DNA from: Ferroacidibacillus organovorans
GTDB lineage: Bacteria > Bacillota > Bacilli > Alicyclobacillales > SLC66
Reading direction: 5' to 3'
NCBI RefSeq assembly: GCF_001642725.1
Contig: NZ_LSUQ01000001.1
Coordinates: 62,001-126,000, forward strand
Length of the DNA stretch: 64,000 bases
The notes beneath the pieces were generated by a model. It saw only the letters and a program-made list of their open reading frames with translations. It was not told the DNA's origin and ran no database searches. How positions within the stretch are numbered: position 1 is the first letter of the stretch; each line of letters opens with the position of its first letter. Of this stretch, positions 10,949 through 62,517 are shown piece by piece. The position numbers and the translations under genes are program-made.

Positions 10949-11011
10949 GGAACGTGTGGTCGATGAAACTTGCCGTGTGATACGTTTGGTTATGAGAGGG
11001 GATCCGTTTTC

Positions 11012-11680
11012 ATGGAACGCCATGTATTGGTCGTTTTTCCGCATCCTGATGATGAGACATTTGGGACAGGCGGTACGATTGCGTCGTTTACGAAAGCCGG
11101 GGTTCCTGTCACCTATGCGTGTGGAACGCTCGGACAGATGGGTAGAAATATGGGCAAGCCCTTTTTTGCAACGCGCGAGACGCTGAGTGAAGTGCGTGAG
11201 AAAGAACTGCGCGCCGCGTGTGACGCGCTTGGCATTAAAGATTTGCGACTCCTCGGACTGCGCGACAAGACAATCGAGTTTGAAGATCGCGAAGTGATCG
11301 CAGATCAACTTCTCTCAATCATAGAGGAGTTGAATCCGTCCTTAATTATCACGCACTATCCGGGATTTGCGGTGCATCCAGACCACAATGCGCTAGGGGC
11401 TGCTTGCGTGCGCGCTGTGGAAAAGCTGCCTGTCGCGAAACGCCCTGTGGTGTATGGTCACGCATTCGCGAGGAATCGCGAGGAATTCATTGGGAGTCCT
11501 GATGTGACGATCGACATTCACGATGTGGCAGAAACAAAACTCGAAGCGGTTCGCGCGCATCGCTCCCAGTCAGAGAATGTGATCGCGCGTTTTGAGGAAG
11601 CGCTTAAAAATAAAGAAGCGGCGGCGCAGTTTGGACCAAGCATGTTTACGGAGAGTTTTTATACGATGAAATTTGCCTGA
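11012..11680 (+). CDS. bshB2: bacillithiol biosynthesis deacetylase BshB2
   Basis: A LmbE-like zinc deacetylase that converts GlcNAc-malate to GlcN-malate in bacillithiol synthesis, and may also act on S-conjugates. It has 222 residues; the zinc motif PHPDDE is at residues 10-15 and the second metal motif HPDHN near 122-126. The ATG at 11012 was chosen for its GAGAGGGGA SD; an upstream in-frame start at 10970 lacks one and would add a non-family extension. It follows yojF in one unit and is closed by a hairpin at 11702. It indicates that the organism makes bacillithiol as its low-molecular-weight thiol. Confidence 0.92.
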   Translation: MERHVLVVFPHPDDETFGTGGTIASFTKAGVPVTYACGTLGQMGRNMGKPFFATRETLSEVREKELRAACDALGIKDLRLLGLRDKTIEFEDREVIADQLLSIIEELNPSLIITHYPGFAVHPDHNALGAACVRAVEKLPVAKRPVVYGHAFARNREEFIGSPDVTIDIHDVAETKLEAVRAHRSQSENVIARFEEALKNKEAAAQFGPSMFTESFYTMKFA

Positions 11681-60913: not shown

Positions 60914-60983
60914 TTTCGGGTTGGCTGCGATTTCCTGGTGACAGCGTTCGACAAAAATCGTAAACTATAAAAATAGCATAGCC

Positions 60984-61103
60984 GAATCACTTGAAGAGAG
61001 TGTACGGAGGACCCATGTAGTTGGGGTGAACTTTGCATTGATGCAAAGCGGGACGACCTTCTCCCGAACCCGTCAGCTAACTCCGGAGGCGTGGGAGGAA
61101 ATC
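60984..61103 (+). promoter_or_regulatory. c-di-AMP (ydaO/yuaA) riboswitch
   Basis: Conserved blocks are in order: CCGAATCAC near 60982, GGGGTGAA at 61023-61030, a hairpin CTTTGCAT/ATGCAAAG at 61031-61050, CGGGACGACC, and CCGAACCCGTCAGCTAA (61064-61080) followed by CTCCGGAGGCG. A TATAAA -10-like box lies at 60966-60971. c-di-AMP binding normally turns such leaders off. The gene after it is a cell-wall protein, a classic target. Confidence 0.92.
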
Positions 61104-61105
61104 GT

Positions 61106-61903
61106 TTGACATACGAAATTTTTAAACGGTTGTCAGCTGCTACGCTGACAGTTGGTTCTTTTCTTATGTTTTTTGGTGGTGACGCAACCAGTATGGCGGC
61201 GACGCTTCCAGCGGCACCATACACTGTTAAGGCGGGGGATACGCCTCTTTCAATCGCTCACCTCACTGGCTTTAGTGTTTCTCGTTTTGATTTGGTCAAT
61301 CACCTCGCTGGTCCGAGTGCGCGTTTGATTCCAGGTGAAAAAGTGGCGCTCCCATTTTTGTATCGTGTGTCATCTGGCGATACACTCTCTTATCTTGCGC
61401 AGCATTACGGCACGACGGTCGCGCGGATCATGGCATTGAACCACCTGCACAGCTCGTTGATTTACGCGGGGCAGACACTGCTTTTCGCGCGAGGAAGTGC
61501 CGCTGTTCAGCATGTTGCACATCCGCTCGTTTTTCGAGCGGCGAATGTCTCGTCCCATGTTGCACCTGCACCAACACCCGCAAAACAAGGACTGGGGACG
61601 TTTTTGGCCAGCGCCTATGATCCGTCCGTCTCTTCGAATGGGCCGTGGGGTGCGGTTGACTATTTTGGACAACCCCTCAAGTTCGGGGATGTCGCGGTCG
61701 ACCCGAGTGTCATACCACTTGGCTCAACGCTTTATATCAGCGGTTACTCAGATCCGGCGCTGCCGGCTGGTGGATTTTATGCAAAAGCGGTGGATACAGG
61801 CGGCGCAATCAAGGGAAAACGAATCGATGTGTTCTTGCCAACCTATACCGCTGCCATGAACTTTGGGTTGGAGAATGTCAGTGTCTCCATCGTTCGAAAG
61901 TAA
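61106..61903 (+). CDS. secreted LysM x2 and 3D-domain cell-wall protein
   Basis: 265 residues from TTG 61106, preceded by GGGAGGAAA. A signal peptide is near residues 8-35. Two LysM repeats follow (YTVKAGDTPLSIAHLTG and YRVSSGDTLSYLAQHYGT), a linker, and a 3D domain with SAYDPS, AVDPSVIPLGSTLYI and AVDTGGAIKGKRIDVF. Likely a peptidoglycan lytic enzyme of the Rpf/YuiC/YocH type. Control by the c-di-AMP riboswitch directly upstream ties wall turnover to turgor/potassium signalling. Confidence 0.9.
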   Translation: MTYEIFKRLSAATLTVGSFLMFFGGDATSMAATLPAAPYTVKAGDTPLSIAHLTGFSVSRFDLVNHLAGPSARLIPGEKVALPFLYRVSSGDTLSYLAQHYGTTVARIMALNHLHSSLIYAGQTLLFARGSAAVQHVAHPLVFRAANVSSHVAPAPTPAKQGLGTFLASAYDPSVSSNGPWGAVDYFGQPLKFGDVAVDPSVIPLGSTLYISGYSDPALPAGGFYAKAVDTGGAIKGKRIDVFLPTYTAAMNFGLENVSVSIVRK

Positions 61904-61924: not shown

Positions 61925-61954
61925 TTGAAACGCGCGTGCCCGCTCCGTTATACT
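61925..61954 (+). promoter_or_regulatory. sigma-A type promoter of the peroxiredoxin gene
   Basis: TTGAAA (61925-61930), an 18-base spacer, TATACT (61949-61954). Confidence 0.75.
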
Positions 61955-61999
61955 GACTGAGTAAACGGAGGTTGTTATTCCACAGTCGGGAGGTACGTT

Positions 62000-62452
62000 A
62001 TGCCAATCATGTCTGGACAAGCCCCTACGTTTCAACTCGCTGCGACTGGTGAGCGGAACGTTTCGCTTGAATCGTATGTGGGGAAAACCGTGGTTCTCTT
62101 TTTCTATCCAAAAGATGACACACCAGGCTGAACCACGGAAGCGACCGGTTTTCGCGATCAGTATGAGCTGTTCGTCGAAAAAGGGGTTGCCGTGCTCGGT
62201 GTGAGCACTGATTCGATCGCGTCTCACGAAAAGTTTGCCGCGAAATACCAATTGCCATTTCCATTGCTTTCCGATCCTGACGCAGCGATTTGTAAAGCCT
62301 ATGAGGTGTATGTCGAAAAAAACATGTATGGTAAAAAGTACATGGGCATTGAACGCACCACATTTGTGATCGATGGGGAAGGTCAGATTGCGAGAGTCTA
62401 TCCTAAAGTGAAAGTGGATGGACACGCAGAAAAGGTTCTTGCAGATCTATAA
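62000..62452 (+). CDS. bcp: Bcp/PrxQ peroxiredoxin with in-frame TGA at the peroxidatic site; probable selenoprotein
   Basis: Read through one TGA, the frame gives a complete 150-residue PrxQ/Bcp thiol peroxidase from ATG 62000 (GGGAGGT SD). Blocks are [47 protein letters not shown] and FVIDGEGQI. Codon 44 (62129-62131) is TGA exactly where the peroxidatic Cys stands. All else, including promoter and terminator, is intact. The resolving-Cys position five residues on is Thr. Selenocysteine at this site is known in some Prx families. Alternatives are a cysteine-inserting UGA suppressor, a recent nonsense mutation, or sequence error. Downstream codons alone (from 62192) would not make a working enzyme. 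Confidence 0.8.
62129..62160 (+). promoter_or_regulatory. candidate bacterial SECIS hairpin
   Basis: Directly 3' of the TGA, GCGA (62141-62144) and TCGC (62152-62155) close a loop CCGGTTT that contains GGU, nine bases after the UGA. An alternative fold pairs CGGAA (62136-62140) with TTTCG (62150-62154) and the UGA with TCA at 62158-62160. Size and distance are near those of known bacterial SECIS elements, but stems are short and codon constraint could produce them by chance. Confidence 0.45.
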
Positions 62453-62460
62453 ATACGCTT

Positions 62461-62517
62461 AAAACCCCACATCTCGGGCCATGCTGATGAGGATGGCCTA
62501 GAGAAGGTGGGGTTTTT
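62461..62517 (+). terminator. terminator after the peroxiredoxin gene
   Basis: AAAACCCCAC (62461-62470) pairs with GTGGGGTTTT (62507-62516), with an inner GGCCAT/ATGGCC stem. Confidence 0.9.

Follow-up and report, generated by a model that had tools for sequence, protein, structure and literature searches.

A predicted 1-Sec peroxiredoxin of the Bcp/PrxQ family in Ferroacidibacillus organovorans

Does a single in-frame TGA at the catalytic position of a peroxiredoxin gene mark a broken gene or a selenoprotein? The window, a stretch of 64,000 nucleotides from Ferroacidibacillus organovorans, poses this question with a bcp/prxQ gene on the + strand that starts with ATG at 62000 and ends with TAA at 62450 to 62452. 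Its frame has one internal stop, a TGA at 62129 to 62131 (codon 44), and encodes a 150-residue peroxiredoxin with a predicted selenocysteine (Sec) at residue 44. The first-pass annotation had described a full Bcp/PrxQ frame with the TGA at the peroxidatic codon, and the frame and the family models bear this out. With TGA taken as Cys, the protein scores 141.4 bits against the NCBIfam model NF006960 (thioredoxin-dependent thiol peroxidase; cut-off, 140) and 142 bits against Pfam AhpC-TSA. The AlphaFold model has a pLDDT of 97, and its best PDB matches are Bcp/PrxQ structures. The PrxQ/BCP subgroup is recognized by the signature P(K/A/R)(D/A)xTxGC, in which Gly precedes the peroxidatic Cys (PMC5302317); the window protein reads PKDDTPGU, with Sec replacing Cys. 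Around residue 44, TPGU also conforms to the TxxU motif and places UGA at the peroxidatic position (PG-U-TTE), and codon 44 aligned with the peroxidatic Cys in all homologues examined.

The flanks of the gene were previously said to show no decay. A Shine-Dalgarno-like GGGAGGT (61988 to 61994, +) can be read directly 5 nt before the ATG, and a sigma-70-like promoter, TTGAAA-18-TATACT (61925 to 61954, +), is present as a match to the consensus. Downstream, AAAACCCCAC/GTGGGGTTTT, an inverted repeat with a long loop and T after it (62461 to 62516, +), is visible by direct reading and is a probable terminator; a simple terminator scan did not call this hairpin. Further upstream, a c-di-AMP riboswitch (RF00379, 86.9 bits) lies at 60970 to 61106, just ahead of a cell-wall-binding-type gene that ends at 61903.

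The best bcp match of each of 150 related genomes was compared with that of the window genome (151 in total). TGA occurs in 22 of the 150, or in 23 of the 151 with the window, and in all 23 genes it lies at the peroxidatic codon, where TGC or TGT stands in the remaining 77 homologues that were examined. The exchange of UGA and UGC at codon 44 is widespread in the relatives. A selB gene was found in 63 of the 151 genomes, including those of 21 of the 23 TGA genes. In G012, which has a TGA bcp gene, selB is split by contig ends; G041, which also has one, contains a tRNA-Sec (62 bits), and its 99% complete assembly gave no selB match above the level of EF-Tu. Among genomes that lack any selB, 50 bcp genes were examined, and 49 of them encode Cys, the exception being that of G041 with its selC; the bcp genes of 28 selB-positive genomes encode Cys as well. 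A protein tree from which the two trait columns had been left out needs 8 changes between Sec and Cys, in one direction or the other, and no fewer than 3 of these fall on well-supported branches. A Sec form (L042, from G081) and a Cys form (L055, from G099) come from one genus, which suggests a recent switch there.

Can this bacterium insert selenocysteine? The assembly that contains the window (3.03 Mb, 98 contigs, estimated to be 96.8% complete) was searched family by family. It encodes a tRNA-Sec (selC) with a UCA anticodon, found with a covariance model (63.3 bits; cut-off, 47) and with ARAGORN, as well as SelB (372 bits; cut-off, 242), SelA (567 bits), and SelD (388 bits). Absence of this machinery would have spoken against the selenocysteine reading put forward earlier; its presence supports it. 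The selA gene adjoins selD on contig 34, and SelD has a TGA of its own in the active site SGUGCK, at a site that is commonly Sec. A gene for a thioredoxin-fold protein whose active site is degenerate (ASWDESS; L069:2406-2744) lies about 1.6 kb upstream of selA.

The bcp gene is not the only one in this genome with such a codon. A single TGA at the catalytic position was found in 3 of 14 AhpC-TSA matches, the window gene (TPGU) among them, and in 1 of 10 thioredoxin-domain matches. The second peroxiredoxin has its TGA at the peroxidatic position in TPVU (DWTPVUGAQ; contig 93, L018:1127-1684). On contig 53 (L021:1402-1929), the TGA falls in the UxxC motif GTWUPNC of a SelL-related or Prx-like protein, which scores 62 bits where the family cut-off is 120. 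The thioredoxin, on contig 11 (33627-33917; L235:1501-1803), carries its one TGA in place of the first active-site Cys (ADWUPGC); this predicted selenothioredoxin may serve as reductant of the Sec peroxiredoxin. None of the 5 molybdopterin-domain genes of the genome, members of a family that includes formate dehydrogenase, has a TGA, and hence a Sec formate dehydrogenase was not found. The AhpC-TSA, thioredoxin-domain, and molybdopterin-domain families together with SelD, which the search covered, yielded at least five predicted selenoproteins, SelD included.

Insertion of Sec in bacteria would also be expected to leave a trace in the mRNA, in the form of a SECIS-type hairpin, and a candidate is present just past the UGA. 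The RNA from 62149 to 62181 (+) can fold into a hairpin of 12 bp that contains a U.U mismatch and a single bulged U (UUUUCG-CGA-U-CAG, loop, CUG-U-UCG-U-CGAAAA); the stem begins 17 nt past the UGA, and the apical loop is near 62162 to 62167. The fold of 62145 to 62185 has a z of −3.53, and 0 of 200 shuffled sequences were as stable. Against a null of synonymous recoding, which preserves the protein, the mean z at a fixed hairpin register, picked after the sequences had been seen, was 1.44 in TGA genes versus 0.03 in Cys genes (P = 2e−5, with kinship ignored). At this register, 12 of 23 TGA genes (52%) were individually below a P of 0.05, compared with 6% of Cys genes; by helix score 7 of the 23 were, and the clarity of the hairpin is uneven among the relatives. 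When the partner strand was slid, pairing fell from 67% to 34 to 52% and covariation from 0.27 to 0.10 to 0.17, again with kinship ignored. A first SECIS rule, which asked for G in loop positions 1 to 2 and for a loop 14 to 37 nt from the UGA, told Sec and Cys genes apart only weakly (P = 0.046). In the window hairpin, neither of the first two apical-loop positions clearly holds the canonical G, and RNAalifold found no structure across all Sec genes. Overall, a stable hairpin follows the UGA and is enriched in TGA genes, making it a candidate bSECIS.

How else could the TGA be explained? Under translation table 11 the bcp frame ends at codon 44, as it would in a recent pseudogene or in a gene for a 43-residue fragment. 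However, the same codon is TGA in 22 other genomes, and several other genes of this genome have a single TGA at a catalytic Cys next to a full set of Sec machinery. The gene of G001, a genome of the same genus, has the identical TGA at a protein identity of 93%, which rules out a sequencing error at this position. The two genes differ at 47 nucleotides and 5 amino acids in the 106 codons past the TGA, giving a dN of 0.03 and a dS of 0.99. These values indicate strong purifying selection, and this part of the gene is evidently translated. We therefore reject the pseudogene and consider a nonsense mutation exceedingly improbable. A suppressor tRNA that decodes UGA as Cys, or as another amino acid, would fit the alignment of the TGA with Cys codons. 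Against this, the UCA-anticodon tRNA that was found is a tRNA-Sec by both the covariance model and ARAGORN, and selA, selB, and selD are all in the genome, leaving such decoding very unlikely. We conclude that residue 44 of the bcp/prxQ product is, with high confidence for a prediction from sequence, selenocysteine.

The remaining rival concerns the catalytic cycle rather than the codon. The first-pass annotation noted that the usual resolving Cys is absent, and this proved to hold for the Sec forms in general. At the +5 site (codon 49, 62144 to 62146, +), where most Cys homologues have the resolving Cys of the E. coli BCP type, the window protein has Thr49. The +5 Cys occurs in 63 of 77 Cys forms and in 1 of 23 Sec forms, the one from G031; the difference in its absence (14/77 versus 22/23) has a Fisher P of 1e−11 with kinship ignored. 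A test of independent pairs for Sec against loss of the resolving Cys, with 3 supported pairs, was underpowered. The association is therefore strong as a count, and shared ancestry may contribute to it. In the literature searched, in which few subscription journals are represented, we found no report that ties Sec to a missing resolving Cys. Seven bcp genes from Sec-using genomes (L037, L055, L082, L088, L098, L105, and L120) encode a peroxidatic Cys and lack the +5 resolving Cys. The enzyme could instead be resolved internally by a Sec44-Cys98 selenylsulfide, with no need of an external thiol: Cys98 is the only Cys that the window protein retains, and it occurs in 19 of 23 Sec forms versus 43 of 77 Cys forms. 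Yet 4 Sec forms have no Cys whatever, Cys98 does not coincide with the resolving Cys84 of Xanthomonas campestris PrxQ, and the corresponding columns, 77 to 83, are without Cys in every relative of the set. We regard internal resolution as improbable. The missing +5 Cys and the Cys-free Sec forms are most simply read as signs of a 1-Sec enzyme that an external donor recycles, and because Thr49 occupies the +5 site we propose, with fair confidence, that an external reductant regenerates the protein.

According to this proposal, SelB and tRNA-Sec(UCA) would decode UGA44 as selenocysteine, guided by the hairpin just downstream, and the product of bcp would be a full-length Bcp/PrxQ peroxiredoxin of the 1-Sec type. 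The Sec44 selenolate would reduce H2O2 or an organic hydroperoxide and become a selenenic acid, and the enzyme would be regenerated from outside by a thiol or selenol, most likely that of a thioredoxin (one being a predicted Sec protein) or bacillithiol. Bacillithiol or a thioredoxin-like partner had been named earlier as the plausible donor. The bshB2 gene is indeed in the window (10970 to 11680; 326.6 bits, cut-off 195), and bacillithiol probably belongs to the reductant repertoire of this genome. An external thiol fits the missing +5 Cys; one correction is that thioredoxin, possibly the predicted Sec-thioredoxin, is at least as likely a donor as bacillithiol. More speculatively, PrxQ of the Bacilli might have switched repeatedly between 2-Cys and 1-Sec forms. 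Sec would make the resolving Cys dispensable because a selenenic acid is readily reduced externally and resists overoxidation, and the Sec peroxiredoxin and Sec-thioredoxin would form an all-selenium peroxide relay. In G002, G003, G008, G010, G017, G058, and G099, the Cys forms that lack a resolving Cys would then be reversions that retain a 1-Cys architecture. We offer this scenario tentatively and think it possible rather than likely.

The rarity of the Sec pathway in Bacilli had been taken to make the gene notable. Sec is not rare among the relatives, judged by the count of selB given above, and Sec Bcp-type peroxiredoxins were described in 2005 (PMC1088965), so the finding is less notable than claimed. 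Annotation pipelines tend to treat such TGA genes as broken. The Sec pathway is retained in many related Bacilli, and the selenoproteins found in the window genome are peroxide/thiol redox enzymes and SelD. Close Sec/Cys pairs with and without the resolving cysteine provide ready material on what selenium gives a peroxiredoxin.

How does the window protein compare with known systems? PrxU of Eubacterium acidaminophilum (NCBIfam NF040737) is likewise a selenoperoxiredoxin, as predicted here, but belongs to a different Prx subfamily, whose cut-off of 270 bits the window protein (64.4 bits) does not reach. The Bcp/PrxQ proteins of X. campestris and Burkholderia ambifaria (PDB 3gkn, 5iiz, and 5enu) share the fold of the window model (TM about 0.9, rmsd 1.0 to 1.2), 47 to 48% of its sequence, and the GC-type active site. 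They have a peroxidatic Cys in place of the predicted Sec44, and Cys84 resolves the X. campestris enzyme and has no counterpart in the window protein. The closest relationship is to the Sec peroxiredoxins of COG1225 with the motif TxxU. This family was reported in 2005 (PMC1088965), which agrees with the earlier statement that Sec is known at this site in some Prx-like selenoproteins; it appears again in PMC1794560, and with 91 proteins from 78 organisms it is one of the top 20 selenoprotein families of bacteria (PMC5029168). Sec peroxiredoxin (TxxU) also figures as a known selenoprotein family in a 2026 review (PMC13188914). The available portions of the COG1225 literature do not discuss the host lineage seen here (Bacilli, the order of Alicyclobacillus) and do not mention a missing +5 resolving Cys in Sec forms. 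In the features that these portions do describe, the two agree: the same COG (Bcp/PrxQ), the TxxU motif (here TPGU), a peroxidatic Sec (here predicted), pairs of Sec and Cys homologues (here 23 TGA and 77 Cys), and the presence of selA, selB, selC, and selD. Because this type has been on record since 2005, the window gene, as read from its sequence, is a predicted member of an already-known group of selenoproteins.
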